64,000 bases of DNA, from positions 2,294,001-2,358,000 of the forward strand of contig NZ_CP089095.1 of NCBI RefSeq assembly GCF_021172145.1. Direction: 5' to 3'. A model generated the notes under the pieces. The model saw nothing but the letters and a program-made list of their open reading frames with translations. It ran no database searches and had not been told where the DNA came from. The first letter of the stretch is position 1. The number at the start of each line of letters is the position of its first letter. The position numbers and the translations under genes are program-made. This DNA comes from Flavobacterium cyclinae. Lineage in GTDB: Bacteria; Bacteroidota; Bacteroidia; Flavobacteriales; Flavobacteriaceae. Of this stretch, positions 678 through 28,092 are shown piece after piece.

Positions 678-756
678 GACATAACTTTTAGAAGTTACGA
701 ATTTACATGACTGTAGTATTAAGTAAAATGATAAATATCATATAGAAAACATGCAA

Positions 757-18837: not shown

Positions 18838-19026
18838 CTAATCTTGAATCTTAAAAACTTTTCTTAAAATATCTTCCATTAAACACCATTTGGTAATAGA
18901 TGATTGAAGCAAATTAGCTCCAACAAAAATGGTAAACCAATACCAATTTTCATTTACATACATACCTAATAATACACTTAAAATTATAAATGTTCCTGCA
19001 ATTGCTCTAATTAATCTGTTTATCAT
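18838..19026 (-). CDS. DUF2892 (YgaP-type) inner-membrane protein
   Basis: The 62-residue protein has two transmembrane segments (about 8-25 and 29-45). ANLLQSSITKWCLMEDIL matches the DUF2892 signature, including the conserved Cys near 49. The same domain anchors the rhodanese YgaP and often sits beside sulfur or metal genes. It starts 10 nt after the P-II-like gene and is the last clear gene of the efflux operon. The precise role is unknown. Confidence 0.8.
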   Translation of the reverse strand: MINRLIRAIAGTFIILSVLLGMYVNENWYWFTIFVGANLLQSSITKWCLMEDILRKVFKIQD

Positions 19027-19036
19027 AATTTTTTTT

Positions 19037-19342
19037 TTAGTTATACTTTTCTACTGAAAACACTGCTAAATGTACTTTAGAAATTGTTTCTTGTTTTTTA
19101 TTAAATTGAGTAACCTCATCAAACAAAATATCTAAATTTTGTTGTAGAATAAAGGCATAAAATACTACTGAATCTGTTTCATTCATATCAGAACCAAACC
19201 AATTTGATTCCATACTTTCTTCGGAAGCATCTCTAAAACCTTTTACATCACGATACGAATAGGATTTTACTTTAGCTTCTTTTAGCATCTTTTTGACATC
19301 TTTTTCAAATTCTGCTATGGCTGTAATTAATACTAATTTCAT
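19037..19342 (-). CDS. P-II-like small regulatory protein
   Basis: The 101-residue protein has no signal peptide and a beta-alpha-beta pattern (KLVLITAIAEFEKDVKKMLK, later VVFYAFILQ and KVHLAVFSVEKYN) like the P-II-like proteins that accompany RND pumps in Bacteroidota. These may sense a ligand and modulate the pump from the cytoplasmic side, by analogy with other P-II proteins; no such role is proved. It follows the RND permease by 75 nt that contain a large palindrome, and precedes DUF2892 by 10 nt. Confidence 0.65.
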   Translation of the reverse strand: MKLVLITAIAEFEKDVKKMLKEAKVKSYSYRDVKGFRDASEESMESNWFGSDMNETDSVVFYAFILQQNLDILFDEVTQFNKKQETISKVHLAVFSVEKYN

Positions 19343-19417: not shown

Positions 19418-22400
19418 TTATTTATTATTCTCCCATTTTTTACGTTCCGTGATGTAGTAAATTAATGGCACTACAATCAAAGTAAGTAAAGTTGAAACAA
19501 TCGCTCCTGCTACTAACGAAATGGCTAATCCTTGGAAAATTGGGTCGAACAAGATGATTGAGGCTCCGATTACTACTGCTCCTGTTGTCAATAAAATTGG
19601 TGTCGTTCTCACAGCTCCAGCTTCGATAATAGCTTGTTTCATTGGAATTCCATCATTTAATCGGATTTCAATAAAGTCAATTAGTAAGACCGAATTTCGA
19701 ACCATAACTCCTGCTAACGCAATCATTCCAATGAACGAAGTAGCAGTAAAGAATGCTCCTAAAACCCAGTGACCTAATACAATTCCGACTAATGAAAGTG
19801 GAATCGCAACCATCATTACAATTGGAGTTTTGAAATTTTGGAACCAACCTACAATTAACATGTAAATTATAATAATTACCACTAAAAATGCAGCTCCTAA
19901 ATCACGGAATACTTCTAAGGTAATTTGCCATTCTCCATCCCATTTCACAGTGAAGTCACTTTCATCAGATGGTGTGTCCATGTACAATTCGTTTACTTTG
20001 TAGCCTTTTGGTAATTGCATTTTTTCTAACTTTTCGTTCATTCCTAAAATCGCATACACCGGACTTTCTAATGCTCCCGCCATATCGGCTAAAACATAAA
20101 CTACACGTTTTTGATCTTTTCTGTAAATCGTGTTTTGTAAAGTATCTGTTGTAACTTTAACTAAATCACTCACTGGAACAACATTTCCTCTACTTCCTTT
20201 GATTTTCAAATTTTGAATATCTTTAATCGAAGTTTTGTCTTTATCTTCTAATGAAAGAGTAATACCAACAGGATTATTCGAACGTTCATCATACAAATTA
20301 GATACCGGCATTTCTCTTAACAAATAAGTCAAATTACCAACAACTTGTTGAGGAGCGATTCCGTTTAACATGGCTTTTTCTCTGTCAACCTCTAATTTGT
20401 ATTCTACTTGAGGAGCTTCTACCATCCAATCCGTATCAACCACATCAGAAGTAGTTTCCAAAATCGTTTTCACTTGATTCGCCACTTTGATCTGCTCTTC
20501 GTAATTAGGTCCGTAAACCTCAGCAACTAAAGTTGATAAAACGGGTGGTCCTGGTGGAACTTCTACAATTTTTACGTTGGCACCATATTTTTTAGCAATC
20601 TTTTGTACTTCTGGACGCACTACTTTTGCGATATCGTGACTTTGTAAATCGCGATCTTCTTTATGTAATAAATTCACTTGGATATCTGCCATATTACTGC
20701 CACCACGCATATCGTAATGACGTACTAAACCATTGAAAGTTATGGGTGCAGAAGCTCCAATATAATTCTGATAATCCACTACTTCTGGAACAGTTGAAAG
20801 ATATTGCGCAATTTCTTTCGTAACCGCAGCTGTTCTTTCTAAAGTAGTTCCTTCTGGCATATCAATTACCACTTGGAATTCGTTTTTGTTATCAAAAGGT
20901 AACATTTTAACCGCTACCGATTTCGTAAAAAACATCAGAACTGAACCCAATAATAGTACTATCGTAACTATGAACATCAAATTTCGTTTCTTAGAATTAT
21001 CTAAAAGCGGTTGCTCTACTTTTTTATAGATTTTATAAATCCAAGACGTTTCTAAACCTTGTTCTTCTTTGTGTTCTTGCTCGTCTTTTTCATGTAATAA
21101 ATGGTATCCCAAATAAGGTGTAACGGTCAAAGCAACAAATAATGATAACATCATGGCAATAGAAGCTCCAATAGGCATCGGACTCATGTAAGGCCCCATC
21201 ATTCCTGACACGAAAGCCATCGGTAAAATAGCCGCAATTACAGTAAATGTTGCTAAAATGGTTGGATTTCCTACTTCGTTAATCGCATAAATCGCAGCTT
21301 GTTTGAATGGCAGTCGCTTCATTTTGAAATGACGGTGCATGTTTTCGGCAATAATAATACTATCATCCACCACAATACCAACTACGAACACTAAAGCAAA
21401 AAGCGTAATTCTATTTAACGTATATCCTAATAAATAGTAACTAAATAAAGTTAAAGCAAAAGTTAATGGAACTGAAAAGAAAACTACTAATCCACCTCTC
21501 CAGCCCATAGCTAACATTACTAAAACCGTTACCGCAATAATGGCAACACCTAAGTGTAATAGTAATTCTCCAACTTTATGAGATGCTGTTTCACCGTAAT
21601 TTCTTGAAACCTCAACATGAACATCGGTTGGGATAATATTTTTCTTTAAAGTTTCAACTCGCTCTAATATTTTCTCAGAAATTTTCATCGCATCAGCACC
21701 CTTAACTTTGGCTACTGAAATGGTTACCGCTGGATATTCCGAATTGAATTTGGAGAATTTCTCATTTGCTTTTCCATATCCAAAAGACACATAGTTTTTA
21801 GGTGTTTGAGGTCCGTCTTGAATAGCTGCTACTTGCTTTAAATAAACTGGCATGTTATTGTTAACACCTACTACCAAGTTTTCTACATCTTCTGAAGTTG
21901 ATAAAAACTTACCCGTAGTCACTAAATATTCCGCATCATTTTGCACAAAACTACCCGATTGTGAACTTCCGTTATTGGCTTGAATCATTTGCATAATGCT
22001 CAATGCATCCACCCCGTTTTCAGCCATTTTATCTTTGTCTAAAACTACTTTTAGCTCGCGTGTTCTTCCTCCAATTTCTTTCGTAATCGCAACGTCTTTT
22101 ACTTTTTCAATTTCCGAAGTAACTTCTTCTGCTATTTGACGTAACTGGAAATCATCGTATTTTTCACTCCAAAGCGTTAATCCCAACATTGGAACATCAT
22201 CAATAGAACGTGTTTTTACGATAGGTTGCATTACTCCTTCTGGAAACATGGTGCGGTTTTTCATCAACTCGTCGTATAATTTTACATACGAATCTTCGCT
22301 GTTTTCACCCACATAAAATTGCACCACCATCATCGAATAGCCATTCATCGCCATACTGTGAATGTGCTCTACTCCTTTGATGTTTCCAATGATTTTTTCT

Positions 22401-22615
22401 AATGGTTTTACTACTCTACTTTCTATCTCAGACGGACTTGCGCCAGGATACATGACCATAACATCGGCCATTGGAACGTTAATTTGCGGTTCTTCTTCCC
22501 TAGGAATTAAGAACGAACTGTAAGTACCAATAATCATCAACGCCACCATTAATAAAATGGTTAATTTTGAGTTGATAAAGAAATTGGCTATTTTACCTGA
22601 TATACCTTCTTGCAT
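19418..22615 (-). CDS. RND efflux transporter permease
   Basis: The 1065-residue inner-membrane pump has the RND plan: TM1 (about 14-34), a large periplasmic loop, TM2-6, a second periplasmic loop and TM7-12. TM4 carries the paired Asp417/Asp418 (GIVVDDSIIIAEN), the proton-relay residues of the AcrB/HAE class. This differs from the heavy-metal class, so a metal substrate cannot be assumed. It lies 78 nt after the adaptor gene and with TolC forms a complete tripartite pump. The substrate is unknown. Confidence 0.93.
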   Translation of the reverse strand: MQEGISGKIANFFINSKLTILLMVALMIIGTYSSFLIPREEEPQINVPMADVMVMYPGASPSEIESRVVKPLEKIIGNIKGVEHIHSMAMNGYSMMVVQFYVGENSEDSYVKLYDELMKNRTMFPEGVMQPIVKTRSIDDVPMLGLTLWSEKYDDFQLRQIAEEVTSEIEKVKDVAITKEIGGRTRELKVVLDKDKMAENGVDALSIMQMIQANNGSSQSGSFVQNDAEYLVTTGKFLSTSEDVENLVVGVNNNMPVYLKQVAAIQDGPQTPKNYVSFGYGKANEKFSKFNSEYPAVTISVAKVKGADAMKISEKILERVETLKKNIIPTDVHVEVSRNYGETASHKVGELLLHLGVAIIAVTVLVMLAMGWRGGLVVFFSVPLTFALTLFSYYLLGYTLNRITLFALVFVVGIVVDDSIIIAENMHRHFKMKRLPFKQAAIYAINEVGNPTILATFTVIAAILPMAFVSGMMGPYMSPMPIGASIAMMLSLFVALTVTPYLGYHLLHEKDEQEHKEEQGLETSWIYKIYKKVEQPLLDNSKKRNLMFIVTIVLLLGSVLMFFTKSVAVKMLPFDNKNEFQVVIDMPEGTTLERTAAVTKEIAQYLSTVPEVVDYQNYIGASAPITFNGLVRHYDMRGGSNMADIQVNLLHKEDRDLQSHDIAKVVRPEVQKIAKKYGANVKIVEVPPGPPVLSTLVAEVYGPNYEEQIKVANQVKTILETTSDVVDTDWMVEAPQVEYKLEVDREKAMLNGIAPQQVVGNLTYLLREMPVSNLYDERSNNPVGITLSLEDKDKTSIKDIQNLKIKGSRGNVVPVSDLVKVTTDTLQNTIYRKDQKRVVYVLADMAGALESPVYAILGMNEKLEKMQLPKGYKVNELYMDTPSDESDFTVKWDGEWQITLEVFRDLGAAFLVVIIIIYMLIVGWFQNFKTPIVMMVAIPLSLVGIVLGHWVLGAFFTATSFIGMIALAGVMVRNSVLLIDFIEIRLNDGIPMKQAIIEAGAVRTTPILLTTGAVVIGASIILFDPIFQGLAISLVAGAIVSTLLTLIVVPLIYYITERKKWENNK

Positions 22616-22675: not shown

Positions 22676-22710
22676 CTGAACACTAATTACTGATTACTGA
22701 AGACTAACCT
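22676..22710. repeat. Heptamer array, CTNATTA type, across the adaptor stop codon
   Basis: Five units read CTGAACA, CTAATTA, CTGATTA, CTGAAGA, CTAACCT. On the minus strand they include TAATTAG, which is shared with the arrays at 34354 and 36904. The adaptor stop codon (22694-22696) falls inside the array, so its last residues VSLQ are array-encoded. Confidence 0.6.
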
Positions 22711-23776
22711 TAGCTCCATTGAATAATTTTCCGTCAGCTGAAACGATGTATTGTTCGTTTGCTGCTAATCCTGATAAAACTTCTACTTGATTCCCGAATG
22801 TTTTTCCAACTCGTAACCATCTCAAAATAGCAACATTACCACTTCCGATAGTGTAAATCCCTGTCAATTGTCCTTGTTTTACTAAAGCGCTTTCTGGAAC
22901 TAAAACCACATCTGATTTCACAGTTGTTGTTTCTTTTTTAGCCGATGGAAATTGCACGTTTACGAACATTCCTGATAAAATTTCTTTATCCATTTTGTCT
23001 AAAGTTACTTTCACCAAATATTGCCCACCTGTATTTTTAGCTGACAAACTCACTTCCGAAACTTTTCCAGCAACTTCTTTATTTAAAGATTTCACGTTGA
23101 TTTTAACTGGCATTCCATTTTTTACATTCGAAATATCACTTTCTGAAACCATTGCTGTTACTTGTAATCTTGATGCTCCTTCAATACTTACTAAAGGCAT
23201 TCCTGGATTCGCCATATCACCTTCTTTTACGAATGTATTGGTTACCGTTCCTGAAAATGGAGCGGTGATATTCGAATAAGAAAACTGCGCCATCACTTCA
23301 TTACGCATTTGTTTGGCTGCTTCTAAACCTGCTTTTGCCATTTCGTAGCGAGCAGTCATATCGTCCAATTCTTTTTGAGAAGCTGATTGTTGTGCAAACA
23401 AGTTCACAAAACGATCGTAATCTTTTTTCGCATTGCTATAAGCTGCTGTTGCTTGTGTGATAGAAGCATCCACTTGTGCTTTTTTTGCTTGTAAGTCAGT
23501 ATTATTGATGCTTACCAAAAGTTGTCCAGCCGAAACATTTTGTCCCACTTTTACATTTACTTTGGTTACATACCCCATCATTCTAGTACTTAGATTCGCA
23601 CTATTTTCGGATTCTATTTTTCCGCTTGCCGTAACATATGAACTATTAGAACTTCCTGAATTTCCAGCTACTTTTACTGGAATTGCTGGTAAATCTGCTA
23701 CATTTTCTTTTTTATCACTTCCACAAGAAGTTAAGATTAAAGATGTTAGTGTAATGATTGTTATTATTTTTTTCAT
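22694..23776 (-). CDS. RND efflux periplasmic adaptor (membrane fusion) lipoprotein
   Basis: The 360-residue protein has a lipobox LTSC (Cys near 18), then the split lipoyl domain (VNVKVGQNVSAGQLLVSINN and FSGTVTNTFVKEGDMANPG) around a helical hairpin (about 93-165), followed by beta-barrel and membrane-proximal domains. It bridges the RND pump and TolC in the periplasm. The family length is usual. The gene lies 116 nt after tolC; the spacer holds a nested palindrome. Confidence 0.92.
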   Translation of the reverse strand: MKKIITIITLTSLILTSCGSDKKENVADLPAIPVKVAGNSGSSNSSYVTASGKIESENSANLSTRMMGYVTKVNVKVGQNVSAGQLLVSINNTDLQAKKAQVDASITQATAAYSNAKKDYDRFVNLFAQQSASQKELDDMTARYEMAKAGLEAAKQMRNEVMAQFSYSNITAPFSGTVTNTFVKEGDMANPGMPLVSIEGASRLQVTAMVSESDISNVKNGMPVKINVKSLNKEVAGKVSEVSLSAKNTGGQYLVKVTLDKMDKEILSGMFVNVQFPSAKKETTTVKSDVVLVPESALVKQGQLTGIYTIGSGNVAILRWLRVGKTFGNQVEVLSGLAANEQYIVSADGKLFNGAKVSLQ

Positions 23777-23892: not shown

Positions 23893-25200
23893 TTATTTGG
23901 TTAAAAATTGTAAGTATTGTTTGGTAAAGTTATATTCGAAAACGGCTTGTAAATGCTCTAATTCTTTTTGTGCCATTTGCGTTTCTGACATTAATAAATC
24001 GGTTGTTTTTTCTAAACCTTGTGTGAATCTGTTTTGACGAATTCTATACGCTTCTTGCGATTGTTCGAAAGCTAATTTTGATAAATTAACTTTATTTTCT
24101 GCATCAAGCAATTGACGATTGGTTTTATTCAATTCTAACTGACTTTGCTTTTTGTATTGTTCGGTTTCAACCGTTGCTTTTTCAAAATCAGCTTTTGCTT
24201 TTTGTGTTTTGCCAACGTTTTTAAATCCATCGAAAATATTCCAAGATAATTGTGCCCCTACTAAATATCCTTGAGCCGAAGTTTGAAAAAGATGTTGGTC
24301 ATACAATTCGTAACTTCCAAAAGCATTTAATCGAGGTAAGAATCCGAATTTAGACGATTGAAACATTTTTTGATAGGCTTCTGCCGATTTTTGCATCGCT
24401 TGAATATCTTTTCTGGAATCAGAAATTGTGGTATTTATAGTTTCTATAGCAATTGCATTATCTAAATTTTCTGCCGGTTTAAAGGTTTTTCCGGTCATAT
24501 CTTCGTTTAATAAAAACGCTAAATAATCGGAAGCATTTTGTACATTGGACTTAGCATATTGCAATTGATTCGCAATTTCATTTACACGAACTTGCACATT
24601 TAATAAATCGGTTTTTTGCAACATTCCGTTTTTGAAATAGTTGTCTACTAATTTTAAATTTCCTTGTGCTGTTGTATTTGCTTTTTCCAAAACTTGTACC
24701 GCTTTATAAGCTAATTGTAATTGCATATACGCTTTTGAAACTTCAAGTTCTAAATATTCTTTAGTGCGCTCTGTTTGCAATTGAAAAGCATCCATTTTAG
24801 CTTTTGCAGCTTGTCTTCCATACAAACCATCTAAGTTGATAAGTGGTTGTTGAACTTCTATTTTAGTGGCAAAATTTTGTGTTTTATCAGGATCATTTAA
24901 TAATGCCGGATTAAAATCGGAAGCCGTTAAAATTTCTTGATTGAGTTTAGAACCAAAAGCCATCAATGGATTAGTAGTTAAAATTCCGGTATGCGATACA
25001 TTTACATTAGGCAAGAAAAGTGCATTTGACTGACGATAATCAGCTCTTGCTGATTGAAATGATTTTTCTGCCACTTTAATTTGTAAGTTATTTTCTGTAA
25101 CTTTCTGCAATAAATCATTTTTTGAAATCGTCAAAGTATCTTGTGCGAAAGTTGCACCAGTTACCATTCCTAATACGATTAATAATTTGACTTTTTTCAT
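23893..25200 (-). CDS. TolC-family outer-membrane efflux protein
   Basis: The 435-residue protein has a signal peptide ending at TFAQ and the duplicated OEP domain of long helices and short strands typical of TolC (about 25-220 and 225-430). It forms the outer-membrane channel of the tripartite pump. It is the first gene of the operon and has the best-defined promoter of the window: a perfect -7 element at 25229-25236 with a GTAAC-N4-GTTAC site 22 nt upstream. Confidence 0.93.
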   Translation of the reverse strand: MKKVKLLIVLGMVTGATFAQDTLTISKNDLLQKVTENNLQIKVAEKSFQSARADYRQSNALFLPNVNVSHTGILTTNPLMAFGSKLNQEILTASDFNPALLNDPDKTQNFATKIEVQQPLINLDGLYGRQAAKAKMDAFQLQTERTKEYLELEVSKAYMQLQLAYKAVQVLEKANTTAQGNLKLVDNYFKNGMLQKTDLLNVQVRVNEIANQLQYAKSNVQNASDYLAFLLNEDMTGKTFKPAENLDNAIAIETINTTISDSRKDIQAMQKSAEAYQKMFQSSKFGFLPRLNAFGSYELYDQHLFQTSAQGYLVGAQLSWNIFDGFKNVGKTQKAKADFEKATVETEQYKKQSQLELNKTNRQLLDAENKVNLSKLAFEQSQEAYRIRQNRFTQGLEKTTDLLMSETQMAQKELEHLQAVFEYNFTKQYLQFLTK

Positions 25201-25228: not shown

Positions 25229-25236
25229 CAAATGTA
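25229..25236 (-). promoter_or_regulatory. -7 element of the efflux operon
   Basis: The minus strand reads TACATTTG, a perfect TAnnTTTG, 29 nt before ATG 25200. No -33 TTTG is present at the usual distance, as expected for an activator-dependent promoter. Confidence 0.65.
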
Positions 25237-25258
25237 CATTCGTAAAAAAAGGTAGTCG

Positions 25259-25272
25259 GTAACAAGAGTTAC
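25259..25272. promoter_or_regulatory. Operator GTAAC-N4-GTTAC, efflux operon
   Basis: GTAACAAGAGTTAC is a perfect 5-4-5 inverted repeat 22 nt upstream of the -7 element, centred near -41. The same site with the same spacing occurs at 27808 and 28079. Confidence 0.7.
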
Positions 25273-25280
25273 ACAACTTT

Positions 25281-25294
25281 GTAATTATTGTTAC
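25281..25294. promoter_or_regulatory. Second, imperfect operator at the efflux operon
   Basis: GTAATTATTGTTAC differs from the consensus at one arm position. Its centre is 22 bp from that of the first operator, two helical turns, on the same DNA face. The outer bases TTGTAA/TTACAA extend the symmetry. Confidence 0.5.
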
Positions 25295-25302
25295 AAAAAA
25301 GA

Positions 25303-25326
25303 AAGAGCGCCAATACAGACGCTCTT
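25303..25326 (-). terminator. Possible second terminator before the efflux operon
   Basis: A 7-bp stem AAGAGCG / CGCTCTT encloses a 10-nt loop; a T-rich stretch follows on the minus strand. It lies upstream of the operators and would block read-through from the 68-aa gene. Confidence 0.5.
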
Positions 25327-25426
25327 AATAACCAATAAAACTAAAACAATCATCAATCTTATTAATGAATTGTATTTCAAAATTACAATTCCCTATTTTT
25401 TATTTCAGCCACAATTATTACATAAA

Positions 25427-25454
25427 AAAACGCCCCGAAAAATCGGGGCGTTTT
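25427..25454 (-). terminator. Terminator of the 68-aa secreted protein gene
   Basis: A very strong stem AAAACGCCCCGA / TCGGGGCGTTTT with an AAAA loop is followed by TTTTTTT on the minus strand, 19 nt past the stop. Confidence 0.85.
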
Positions 25455-25473
25455 CAATTTATTTAGAATAAAA

Positions 25474-25680
25474 TTATTCCGCTTTTTTCTCAGATGATTT
25501 TTTAGATGAACAACATCCACCTGATTTTCCTTCTGAACCACAAGATTTTTTATCTGAAGTTGAGCAAGATTTTTCAGTTTTAGCTGTTTCTTTTTTTGCT
25601 TTTTTCTTTGGCTCTTGAGCGTTAACATTCATTGATAACATAAAAGCAGCCACTGCCATAATAGAAACTAATTTTTTCAT
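25474..25680 (-). CDS. Small secreted Lys/Cys-rich protein
   Basis: The 68-residue protein starts with a signal peptide (cut after NVNAQ) and leaves a mature peptide of about 46 residues with many Lys, Ser and Glu and five Cys (KSCST, KKSCGS, GGCCSS). I do not recognise a named family. The Cys pairs could bind a metal or form disulfides. It has a perfect -7 element at 25733-25740 and its own strong terminator, so it is a single-gene unit beside the efflux operon. An overlapping frame running to 25383 is much less gene-like and is not called. Confidence 0.7.
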   Translation of the reverse strand: MKKLVSIMAVAAFMLSMNVNAQEPKKKAKKETAKTEKSCSTSDKKSCGSEGKSGGCCSSKKSSEKKAE

Positions 25681-25732
25681 TGTATTTATTTTTTAAATTA
25701 TTATTTATTCTTTTGTTTGTTTTGTACTATCA

Positions 25733-25740
25733 CAAATATA
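25733..25740 (-). promoter_or_regulatory. -7 element of the 68-aa gene
   Basis: The minus strand reads TATATTTG, a perfect TAnnTTTG, 53 nt before the start codon. Confidence 0.5.
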
Positions 25741-25788
25741 TATAAATTTAGAAACAGTACTCTTAATTTTTTATTAATTTAACATTTA

Positions 25789-27387
25789 TTACTTTTTAAT
25801 TATTCTTTTTGACACATAATATTTATCATCAAATATAAAAGTAAGGATTACCATTTTTGAATTAAGAAATGAAATATCAAAGTTCATAGCATTTTTTCCC
25901 ATTTTGGTATCTTCTATTTCCCCTTCTTCAATAATTTTTCCATCTATACTGGTTAACATGTAATTTAGTTTAGCAGCATATGGCATCTCAAATGTTACTC
26001 TAACCGTATCATTTACAGTTGGATTAGGAGAAACCGTAAATGAAAACGGATTTTTACCATCAATTTGTGGTGTACTTAAAGTTGTATTTTTAACCAACTT
26101 CACTTCATAAACCGTAGGATCTGCACTAGTCAAATTAGTTTGATTATCTGTAAATGCAGATGCAGATGAACTTTGAATGCCTCCAAATAAATGCCCAATT
26201 ACAAATTCATTATCTGTAATATTAGACAACTGAATTACTTCATTTGTATAATGAGGTAAATTCTCATTTGGTATAAACTCTGCTCCTGCACCTTTTAGAT
26301 TAGGCATTTCAACAGGTAATTGATATTCTAGTAAATTTCCATCAGAAAAACGAGTAGTAAGACTTATCGTTTTTACAAAAGGAACCGTATCATCTTGTAA
26401 TAATGTTCCATTTTGATAATAATACTGACTCATTCCTCCAAAAAACAGATTATGCATTCTGTTATTAGTTGCATCATACAAACAAGCTTTACCACTATGA
26501 TAATTACTCAAATATTGATTGAATTGCGTTTGTGGAAAATAGCCTCCCACTTTTATATCAACTGGATATAAGAATGGTAAATCTACTGCAATTTGAAATA
26601 CACCAGAAGAAATGGTGTAACCTAATTCTCCATCAGGAAATACTTGAGGCAACAAATTATAATCGCGTCGATGCAAATGAACTGCATCTACAACTTCTTC
26701 ATAATTGGCATAACTCAAATTACTACCTGAATTATCAATAGTAAATTTTCGGATGGAATTGGAATACGTTTGAGTAAAGGTTGGATTGTTCATTGGATTG
26801 TATCTTCCATCAAAACGATGTCCGCCCACCAAATAAAAAGTATTCCCAATTTTTCCTAATTGACCTCCCGTAATCGCAAAAACATCATTTGATATTTGTT
26901 TGAAATAAGAAGTAATAGGAGTTCCCGCTACAATTGCATTTATCAAATTAGGCACATCAATCGATGTTAAATTATTAAAGGTTTTATGATCCGCAGCAGT
27001 TGTAGAATACGCATAACCACCAATGATAAATAATGCATCCCCATCTTGATAAAAATTCATATTAGTGGACTGTAATTGTTCTTTTATTCCTGTAGGAAGC
27101 GAATTTACAGAAGCAGACCATGTTTGTTGAGTAGCAACATCTACTACATACATTTCCGTATTGTTTTGTGCTCCAGGAAACGCATTAAAGGGTTGGCGTG
27201 CATGAACTCCGTCTTTTCTTCCACCAATAATAAGCCATTTGCCATTATGTTGTCCAAAAGCATACGAATGCAATCCGGGTAAACCCGAAACAACAACTGG
27301 AGTGAGTACCACATCATATTCAAAGGTACTTTGTGCTGTTGTTGACTGAAAAAAAGCCAACAAAAACACGATTAAAATATTTTTCAT
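25789..27387 (-). CDS. Kelch-like secreted protein with T9SS sorting tail
   Basis: The 532-residue protein has a signal peptide (cut near STTAQ), repeated kelch-like strands with double-Gly turns (IIGGRKDG, FIIGGYAYS, YLVGGHRFDG, FFGGMSQYY) that suggest a beta-propeller over about 25-440, and a C-terminal type A sorting domain from about 450 (FTVSPNPTVNDTVRV ... YYVSKRIIKK). The tail marks it for export and surface attachment by the type IX secretion system. The ligand is unknown. It lies between genes of the proposed efflux regulon but has no GTAAC operator of its own. Confidence 0.8.
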   Translation of the reverse strand: MKNILIVFLLAFFQSTTAQSTFEYDVVLTPVVVSGLPGLHSYAFGQHNGKWLIIGGRKDGVHARQPFNAFPGAQNNTEMYVVDVATQQTWSASVNSLPTGIKEQLQSTNMNFYQDGDALFIIGGYAYSTTAADHKTFNNLTSIDVPNLINAIVAGTPITSYFKQISNDVFAITGGQLGKIGNTFYLVGGHRFDGRYNPMNNPTFTQTYSNSIRKFTIDNSGSNLSYANYEEVVDAVHLHRRDYNLLPQVFPDGELGYTISSGVFQIAVDLPFLYPVDIKVGGYFPQTQFNQYLSNYHSGKACLYDATNNRMHNLFFGGMSQYYYQNGTLLQDDTVPFVKTISLTTRFSDGNLLEYQLPVEMPNLKGAGAEFIPNENLPHYTNEVIQLSNITDNEFVIGHLFGGIQSSSASAFTDNQTNLTSADPTVYEVKLVKNTTLSTPQIDGKNPFSFTVSPNPTVNDTVRVTFEMPYAAKLNYMLTSIDGKIIEEGEIEDTKMGKNAMNFDISFLNSKMVILTFIFDDKYYVSKRIIKK

Positions 27388-27450
27388 TTTATTCCATTAT
27401 AAATTAAGCTTGTGCAATTAACACAAACATCAAAATCAACTTTTTCTAAT

Positions 27451-27774
27451 TTAGGAAATGAAAAACTTAGGCGGATGCCAAATAGAGTGTTGGTATCTAG
27501 AAATAAAAATTTTCTCGTAATTGGATTGTTCCTTTTCGATTTTAAATTCGGGAAAAGTAATTTCAGGTTTAAAGTCTAATTCCCCTACAAATTGAACAGG
27601 ACTAAAGTTTAAACTCATAATAATTTTCCCTTTTTCACAACCCGAAGATTCAGAACCTGATGTATGACAGGTTTGTTCACAATTTTGACTCGTAAGCATT
27701 TTCATTGCTCTTACTGACGGTAATGCCACCAATAGCAACAAATAAACGCATAATATGTGAACTGAAAATTTCAT
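27451..27774 (-). CDS. Small secreted protein, DUF6660-like
   Basis: The 107-residue protein has an N-terminal hydrophobic segment (about 7-22), a Cys cluster (NCEQTCHTSGSESSGCEKG, about 31-49) and a C-terminal SIWHPPKFF tail. The Cys/His cluster and the W-x-PP-K tail recall DUF6660-type proteins that accompany metal receptors and pumps in Flavobacteria; this is recollection and tentative. The predicted -7 element (27779-27786) lies so close to the ATG that the mRNA may be almost leaderless. An operator identical in arms to that of tolC lies at 27808-27821. Confidence 0.6.
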   Translation of the reverse strand: MKFSVHILCVYLLLLVALPSVRAMKMLTSQNCEQTCHTSGSESSGCEKGKIIMSLNFSPVQFVGELDFKPEITFPEFKIEKEQSNYEKIFISRYQHSIWHPPKFFIS

Positions 27775-27778
27775 TTAA

Positions 27779-27786
27779 CAAATATA
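27779..27786 (-). promoter_or_regulatory. -7 element of the 107-aa gene
   Basis: The minus strand reads TATATTTG, a perfect TAnnTTTG. It ends 4 nt before the start codon. Confidence 0.55.
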
Positions 27787-27807
27787 TACAAAATACAAAT
27801 AGGCTTG

Positions 27808-27821
27808 GTAACATTTGTTAC
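27808..27821. promoter_or_regulatory. Operator GTAAC-N4-GTTAC, 107-aa gene
   Basis: GTAACATTTGTTAC is a perfect inverted repeat 21 nt upstream of the -7 element. It is also only 8 nt past the end of the DUF6132 gene. Confidence 0.7.
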
Positions 27822-27829
27822 ACAATAAA

Positions 27830-28033
27830 TTATGATTGTTTCTTTTTGAAAAAATCATAAATCATATTAAATAACAATCCACCTAAAACACCTCCATACA
27901 AAGTACTATTTAAAGGTTTTGAGGTTATTGAACATGTTCCTGTGACACAGCCAACAAAATGATAATACGCATATCCAGAAATACATCCGAGAATAATTCC
28001 AATTACCGTTATTGCAATTTCCTTTTTATTCAT
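27830..28033 (-). CDS. DUF6132-family membrane protein
   Basis: The 67-residue protein has two hydrophobic segments (about 7-24 and 46-58). The middle matches DUF6132 (HFVGCVTGTCSITSKPLNSTLYGGVLGG is the characteristic region; the two Cys are near 29 and 34). The family is often found near rhodanese and Crp/Fnr genes in Bacteroidota, by recollection. It has its own promoter (28049-28056) with an operator 22 nt upstream. Function is unknown. Confidence 0.78.
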   Translation of the reverse strand: MNKKEIAITVIGIILGCISGYAYYHFVGCVTGTCSITSKPLNSTLYGGVLGGLLFNMIYDFFKKKQS

Positions 28034-28048
28034 GTTTTATTTAAATGA

Positions 28049-28056
28049 CAAAGTTA
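28049..28056 (-). promoter_or_regulatory. -7 element of the DUF6132 gene
   Basis: The minus strand reads TAACTTTG, a perfect TAnnTTTG, 16 nt before the start codon. Confidence 0.6.
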
Positions 28057-28078
28057 CCATTCAAAACCAAACTATTAG

Positions 28079-28092
28079 GTAACATAAGTTAC
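28079..28092. promoter_or_regulatory. Operator GTAAC-N4-GTTAC, DUF6132 gene
   Basis: GTAACATAAGTTAC is a perfect inverted repeat 22 nt upstream of the -7 element. Its last base is part of the TAG stop of the MBOAT gene. Confidence 0.7.

Follow-up and report, generated by a model that had tools for sequence, protein, structure and literature searches.

What connects a TolC-type efflux operon with a gene for a small secreted protein and a gene for a small membrane protein on the Flavobacterium cyclinae chromosome? In a 64,000-nucleotide stretch of that chromosome (NCBI RefSeq assembly GCF_021172145.1, contig NZ_CP089095.1, positions 2,294,001-2,358,000 of a 3.02-Mb genome in one contig; here called the window), an operon encoding a TolC-adaptor-RND pump, a gene for a 107-amino-acid (107-aa) protein and a gene for a DUF6132 protein are each preceded by the same inverted repeat, GTAAC-N4-GTTAC. 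We consider it likely that the three promoters belong to a response to sulfide or persulfide in which this pump takes part and which is switched on by one Crp/Fnr regulator acting as a class II activator. The sites, their fixed spacing and conservation, their linkage to the regulator, the match between recognition helix and operator, and the target families are all read directly from DNA and protein sequence, and on that ground the operator, the regulator and the regulon are well supported. We infer, a step further on, that the regulator binds these sites, that it activates rather than represses, that sulfide or persulfide is the signal and that two cysteines (C77 and C83) sense it, and our view of what the pump exports is of the same kind.

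All three window repeats are perfect and are read here on the minus strand: GTAACTCTTGTTAC (25259-25272) before the tolC operon, GTAACAAATGTTAC (27808-27821) before the 107-aa gene, and GTAACTTATGTTAC (28079-28092) before the DUF6132 gene. A search of the window returned these three perfect copies and no others, as an earlier sequence-only reading had judged by eye, and located them 22, 21 and 22 nucleotides (nt), respectively, from perfect -7 elements of the form TAnnTTTG, namely TACATTTG (25229-25236), TATATTTG (27779-27786) and TAACTTTG (28049-28056), all on the minus strand and at the distances which that reading had given. Its remark that none of the three promoters has TTTG at -33 also proved right when the sequence was inspected. 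In excerpts of PMC9723704, the -7 box of F. psychrophilum is mapped to -12 to -5; with a spacing of 22, the operator would therefore extend from -48 to -35, and its predicted centre would be -41.5. The spacing of 21 at the 107-aa gene is kept in the near relative G012, and the DUF6132 operator is kept in the relatives G012, G023 and G032. The tolC promoter has a second operator, GTAACAATAATTAC (25281-25294, minus strand), which carries one mismatch, lies 22 bp upstream of the proximal one and has a predicted centre of -63.5. This second operator is found at the equivalent place in G012, G023 and G032 and at another distance in G013. Two perfect operators 22 bp apart occur in the TolC promoters of locus L151 (5756 and 5778) and locus L178 (G032). 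We do not regard tandem operators as a general feature, as a copy at 22 bp with at most two mismatches was found in just one (L151) of the 151 promoters in the 80 regulator loci described below.

Across the genome, perfect sites number 6, compared to 4 matches to a reversed-pattern control, and sites with at most one mismatch number 145, compared to 166. The raw count is not enriched, which is the first of several points that weigh against our reading, and it is what would favor the view that these are chance inverted repeats in AT-rich DNA. That view has a negligible probability. A first-order Markov estimate predicts 0.03 perfect sites per 64 kb and 1.4 per genome, the chance of finding TAnnTTTG at a spacing of 21 to 23 on either strand of a site is about 0.4%, and the conservation and spacing of the sites already refute it. 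Raw motif counting was dropped as evidence in favor of positional tests, and since the one-mismatch count falls below its control, such sites are informative only when they have promoter spacing. The perfect sites are near the control in number, yet five of the six have TAnnTTTG at a spacing of 21 to 23; the sixth (161905) is intragenic. The sites at 709,998 and 1,865,793, both with promoter spacing, head a rhodanese gene and a gene for an HMA-domain protein, the latter itself downstream of a YeeE/YedE pair. Spacing was examined for 108 of the 145 zero- or one-mismatch sites, and TAnnTTT[AG] lies at a spacing of 21 to 23 in 10 of the 102 one-mismatch sites, compared to about 0.5 at each other spacing. 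The genes behind these ten sites encode Thioredoxin_9, a LysE-type exporter, a thioredoxin reductase (TrxR)-like flavoprotein, a sulfide:quinone oxidoreductase (SQR), a DUF983 protein, a thioredoxin, a peroxiredoxin (assigned by eye), a Crp/Fnr regulator, PruA and a ferredoxin-like protein. The spacing is 22 for SQR, Thioredoxin_9, TrxR-like, LysE and thioredoxin, 21 for DUF983 and 23 for the regulator. Two-mismatch sites precede YeeE (spacing of 20) and a second MBL-rhodanese (spacing of 22). SQR was identified by its sequence matches in the PDB (3hyv, E value of 2.8e-61), the match to the type III SQR model being under its cut-off. Targets called CydA, SulP, c-type cytochrome, BCP peroxiredoxin, ferredoxin or PruA, here and below, carry tentative names given by eye.

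The regulator would be encoded elsewhere on the chromosome. No regulator gene had been noticed in the window, and indeed no Crp/Fnr gene there passes the Pfam cut-off for HTH_Crp_2, which four genes of the genome pass. Our candidate is a 210-aa Crp/Fnr protein encoded at 986,621-987,250 of the genome (minus strand), followed by genes for a TauE-family sulfur exporter and an MBL-rhodanese; its own promoter carries GTAACAAAAGTAAC, with one mismatch, 23 nt before TATATTTA. The protein has the cyclic-nucleotide (cNMP)-binding-like beta barrel and the Crp-type helix-turn-helix (HTH) of the superfamily, and its predicted structure is the Crp/Fnr fold. Its Pfam domains are just the two Crp/Fnr ones, which places it outside the CsoR, ArsR and sigma54 types. 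Among the matches listed, the closest named regulator is that of Flavobacterium cheniae, with 96% identity. At an E-value threshold of 0.001, which also admits distant homologues, 47 of 60 relatives have a match, and 85 of 249 genomes of the genus have an orthologue-level match (E value of 1e-80) to the regulator of locus L130. A transposase-like pair of open reading frames (ORFs) lies near the regulator locus (L043 2552-3819; L012 50-631), and part of its second ORF recurs, by eye, next to another Crp/Fnr gene.

Support for one operator serving one regulator comes from loci chosen by the regulator protein and not by the site. In the best 80 named loci (1.2 Mb, mostly Flavobacteriaceae, plus Sphingobacterium, Flexithrix and Lentimicrobium), there are 140 perfect sites compared to 4 reversed-pattern matches. 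The proposal of a shared regulon with Crp/Fnr-like operator arms holds on sequence evidence. Although ORFs of at least 150 aa make up 79% of this DNA, only 3 of the 140 sites lie wholly within one. TAnnTT is found exactly 22 nt away from 117 of the 140 sites (on both strands for 3 of them) and at 21 to 23 nt from 125, and the full TAnnTTTG is found at 22 nt from 64. Counted per site and strand, 120 of 280 have the element at a spacing of 22, and at most 10 have it at any other spacing. The sequence-only reading had placed the operators at the class II position of Crp/Fnr activators, and this regularity, with its predicted centre of -41.5, agrees with it. In the model that we favor, one dimer of the regulator would bind TGTAAC-N4-GTTAC at -41.5 and contact RNA polymerase there, replacing the missing -33 element. 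One might suppose instead that the regulator is a repressor or a dual regulator, released by reactive sulfur in the manner of CstR and SqrR. Persulfide regulators such as CstR and SqrR/BigR do repress (excerpts of PMC9774590), and position alone does not prove activation. We nevertheless find this improbable, as a spacing of 22 in so many sites is a pattern typical of contact with RNA polymerase. The -33 position also rarely has TTG, which occurs in 3 of 136 operator promoters compared to 47 of 222 others, though this depletion is mostly a matter of arithmetic, the operator sequence itself being incompatible with TTG at four of the seven spacings, and we do not rely on it.

The regulators fall into two types by recognition helix, SRVV (V-type) and SREV (E-type), and the operators change with the helix. 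In E. coli CRP, a glutamate occupies this position of the helix and makes contact with the base pair that includes the G of TGTGA. The 95 loci whose regulators are all V-type hold 95 GTAAC/GTTAC sites compared to 4 G-containing sites, and the 24 loci whose regulators are all E-type hold none compared to 17. These counts include near-duplicates, for example L048/L077 and L051/L084, each pair apparently representing a single genome. Motif and control sites stand at 127:123 in the 21 V-type genomes among the 60 relatives and at 112:321 in the other 39, among which G008 and G040, with distant V-helix homologues only, were counted; a Mann-Whitney test on the per-genome ratios gives a p of 1e-5, with the related genomes not being independent of one another. 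A Glu group of four loci (L120, L130, L248 and L249) is nested within the V orthologues (starred branches of a quick tree, long rows) and is, on sequence grounds, a natural specificity swap in Flavobacterium: three of its four loci have GTGAC at a spacing of 22, and among the 28 V-type loci compared with them, 12 have GTAAC/GTTAC and 1 is mixed. The pump follows the same rule, and the window's own tolC promoter offers the best test of it. Among the 60 relatives, 13 encode TolC orthologues (14 copies at an E value of 1e-100), and all 14 have an operator 22 nt before TAnnTT. This operator is of the GTAAC type in 7 of 7 promoters of V-type genomes (one with the other arm changed) and of the GTGAC type in 7 of 7 copies in the six E-type genomes (one with an arm mismatch).

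These pump promoters also bear on the possibility that the window sites serve an unrelated TetR/MarR-type regulator of a stand-alone efflux system and resemble Crp/Fnr operators by chance. Pumps with their own regulator are common and the window has no Crp/Fnr gene; however, the TolC operators track the Crp/Fnr helix type in all 14 cases, and in L126 and L154 the regulator gene lies directly before the same operon, TolC-adaptor (MFP)-RND-101aa-YgaP-TM, on the same strand. That explanation is thus already contradicted, and we give it a very small chance. In L120 and L130, the pump operon is convergent with the regulator gene and about 2.6 kb downstream of it, cut by the contig or locus end. E-type regulators adjoin TauE in 15 of 21 loci, which indicates that both types serve sulfur genes.

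The targets point to sulfur as the subject of the response. A TauE homologue is present in 52 of the 80 loci. We assigned targets to 151 oriented sites, one-arm variants included, of which 10 have no ORF; family names rest on one representative each, and DUF983 was matched for the F. cyclinae protein only. MBL-rhodanese or rhodanese genes follow 44 sites in 37 loci, TauE follows 26, DUF983-like genes (by eye) 12, SQR-like genes 10, the regulator itself 9, 1-Cys peroxiredoxin 8, TolC 6, c-type cytochrome-like genes (by eye) 5 and YgaP-TM 4 (far from the start). Rarer targets are SulP-like genes (2), a CydA-like gene (1, in L111; both by eye), a molybdopterin oxidoreductase of the sulfite-oxidase type (1), YeeE (1) and HMA (1), and the remainder are pairs or single cases that include several short or unplaced, possibly spurious ORFs. 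The SQR of L082 has mitochondrial sulfide:quinone oxidoreductase as its closest PDB entry (6mp5, E value of 7.6e-96), and MBL-rhodanese matches PDB entries 3tp9 and 3r2u. The sequence-only reading had guessed at a sulfur, redox or metal stress response, and its sulfur/redox part holds on sequence evidence. Its label of an efflux regulon captured the pump as a member and is too narrow for what we predict to be a sulfide/persulfide set. Under sulfide or persulfide stress, the dimer would turn on its own gene and the sulfur genes: SQR would convert sulfide to persulfide, MBL-rhodanese and rhodanese would oxidize or transfer the sulfane sulfur, TauE and YeeE/YedE would move sulfur anions, and thioredoxin, the TrxR-like protein and peroxiredoxin would repair thiols. 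The TolC-adaptor-RND operon, the 107-aa protein and DUF6132 would be envelope members of the response, and the cargo of the pump may be sulfite, thiosulfate, polysulfide or damaged thiols.

As the sensor, we propose a conserved cysteine pair. In an alignment of 52 chosen homologues, C77 is present in all 52 and C83 in 50, often with C84 as well, in the loop that in CRP binds cAMP, and both C77 and C83 are also kept in a second, E-type group that was aligned. We suggest that the pair may sense by persulfide bridging. The position of CRP Glu72, which we take to be a residue of the cAMP pocket along with Arg82 and Ser83, is Met in 46 of the 52.

Several observations besides the raw counts weigh against our reading. 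The cysteine region is modelled with low confidence (pLDDT, a per-residue score, of 67 to 68). At the positions of CRP Arg82 and Ser83 (here K/R89 and Ser90), 48 of the 52 homologues keep K/R and 51 keep Ser, so that the pocket may still accept a phosphate-bearing ligand and is not clearly inactive. The MBL-rhodanese gene at the window start, which had been listed among the linked families, has no GTAAC site with two or fewer mismatches at promoter spacing. DUF6132 keeps the operator in just 4 of the 18 genomes with a homologue, with no site within 300 bp in the other 14. PruA (506042) and the ferredoxin-like gene (2122102) fit the theme poorly and start 93 and 116 nt from their operators. Within the stretch compared, no site adjoins the regulator in the remaining 15 of the 28 V-type loci, and three V-type regulators have only G-containing neighbors. 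Independent changes of helix and operator are few, being one in the first regulator tree, two in the tree with the nested Glu group and at most two, on weak branches, in the TolC tree. For this reason we treat the helix/operator match as strong consistency and not as a statistical test; we rejected its use as evidence of independent evolution and claim no p-value for it.

The conserved K/R89 and S90 also favor an alternative in which the regulator and the regulon are the same and the signal differs, being oxygen or redox state, nitric oxide, a metal or a small anion bound as a ligand at K/R89-Ser90, with the sulfur genes downstream of a general redox response. Crp/Fnr proteins are generally known to sense many ligands, and several regulon members (DUF983, LysE, HMA and RND) have no specific tie to sulfide. 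Set against this, MBL-rhodanese/rhodanese, TauE and SQR-like genes dominate the targets, such genes are elsewhere under dedicated sulfide sensors, and the E-type relatives lie beside TauE as well. FNR proper has N-terminal cysteines for a 4Fe-4S cluster and a TTGAT-type site; the F. cyclinae regulator has no FNR-type N-terminal Fe-S cysteines and indeed no Cys before residue 77, and its operator is GTAAC. We regard a different signal as unlikely and retain sulfide or persulfide as the probable one.

The arrangement resembles the class II promoters of E. coli CRP and FNR in its cNMP-domain and Crp-type HTH fold, its palindromic operator and its predicted centre. Arg182 and Arg187 of the regulator lie at what we take to be the positions of CRP Arg180 and Arg185. 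The regulator differs from CRP in having Val183 at the position of CRP Glu181, GTAAC instead of GTGAC and mostly Met at the Glu72 position, and it differs from both E. coli proteins in working with a Bacteroidota -7 box and not a sigma70 -10 box and in lacking the Fe-S cysteines of FNR. Its E-type relatives in Flavobacterium share C77, C83, the TauE neighbor, the spacing of 22 and the TolC operon and differ in the Glu of the recognition helix and the GTGAC-type operator.

In function, the nearest parallels are sulfide regulons of other folds. In excerpts of PMC7315123, the Acinetobacter baumannii sulfide response under FisR/BigR comprises SQR, persulfide dioxygenase (PDO), TauE, YeeE/YedE and CydAB. 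The predicted regulon of F. cyclinae and its relatives resembles what those excerpts give of FisR/BigR regulons in SQR, persulfide dioxygenase, TauE and YeeE/YedE, with the CydA-like target of L111 (by eye) as a further likeness. FisR is an activator of the sigma54 type and BigR represses and is of the ArsR type, whereas the regulon proposed here would have a dedicated regulator of the Crp/Fnr family and would take in a TolC-RND pump. With CstR (CsoR type) and SqrR (ArsR type), as presented in excerpts of PMC9774590, the regulator shares two conserved cysteines proposed as the sensor and, by prediction, sulfide-oxidation targets; unlike them, it has an unrelated fold, both of those proteins repress, and persulfide sensing is here a proposal. 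The searched passages of two reviews on bacterial responses to H2S and reactive sulfur contain no Crp/Fnr sulfide sensor, and in one of them the string "Bacteroid" has no match in those passages; as far as these passages go, the reviews name OxyR and SoxRS as also responding to sulfide. By titles and the starts of abstracts, we found no description of a Crp/Fnr sulfide regulon in Bacteroidota in the open-access PMC literature that we searched. We take this to be a new regulon within a known superfamily of regulators and probably also a new kind of reactive-sulfur control. More tentatively, and with somewhat less than an even chance of being right as a whole, a Bacteroidota branch of Crp/Fnr may have turned the cyclic-nucleotide pocket into a persulfide thiol sensor (C77-X5-C83) that runs a class II sulfide-detoxification regulon, in which the Val/Glu choice sets GTAAC/GTGAC and the TolC-RND pump is the exporter arm. 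If true, this would give the sensors dedicated to reactive sulfur a further fold, in addition to the CsoR, ArsR and sigma54 types named in the reviews. The analysis as a whole offers a candidate regulator, a 14-bp operator at a fixed spacing and a target list, it suggests what an orphan pump and the DUF6132, YgaP-TM and DUF983 proteins may do, and the one-residue/one-base specificity pair could serve as an internal check of binding.

The genes behind the window operators all lie on the minus strand. The tolC operon encodes a 435-aa TolC-family outer membrane protein (23893-25200; Pfam OEP), a 360-aa RND periplasmic adaptor (22694-23776; Pfam HlyD_D23, and over the cut-off for NCBIfam RND_mfp), a 1065-aa RND permease (19418-22615; Pfam ACR_tran, with no NCBIfam model over its cut-off among those listed), a 101-aa protein (19037-19342) and a 62-aa YgaP-like transmembrane protein (18838-19026; PF11127), the last being what the sequence-only reading called DUF2892. 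The 101-aa protein has a homologue in the same operon order in L126 and L154; it matches no Pfam or NCBIfam family model, so its earlier label as a PII protein is unverified. The 107-aa protein (27451-27774) contains Cys, is judged by eye to be secreted and has no family among the Pfam and NCBIfam models. The 67-aa DUF6132 membrane protein (27830-28033) matches Pfam PF19628 with 26.9 bits against a cut-off of 23.2.

Three minor observations may be added. Before the MBL-rhodanese gene at the window start lies ATGATAAATATCAT (728-741), at a spacing of exactly 22 nt from the downstream TAAATTCG (698-705, minus strand). The former is an FNR-like TGAT-N4-ATCA palindrome at the class II position with an imperfect -7 box, a single instance that perhaps serves a different Crp/Fnr protein encoded in the genome. 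A 68-aa secreted Lys/Cys-rich protein, CSTSDKKSCGSEGKSGGCCSSKK, with no Pfam match, is encoded at 25474-25680, in the interval that separates the tolC operon from the 107-aa gene. Finally, the small secreted proteins with the C-terminal sequences HPPKFFIS, FHPPTFIS and YPPPKILVA (window 27451-27774; L014 2192-2566; L095, site 1671 minus) possibly form, as judged by eye, one uncharacterized family; two of the three follow such operators, and one adjoins another Crp/Fnr gene.

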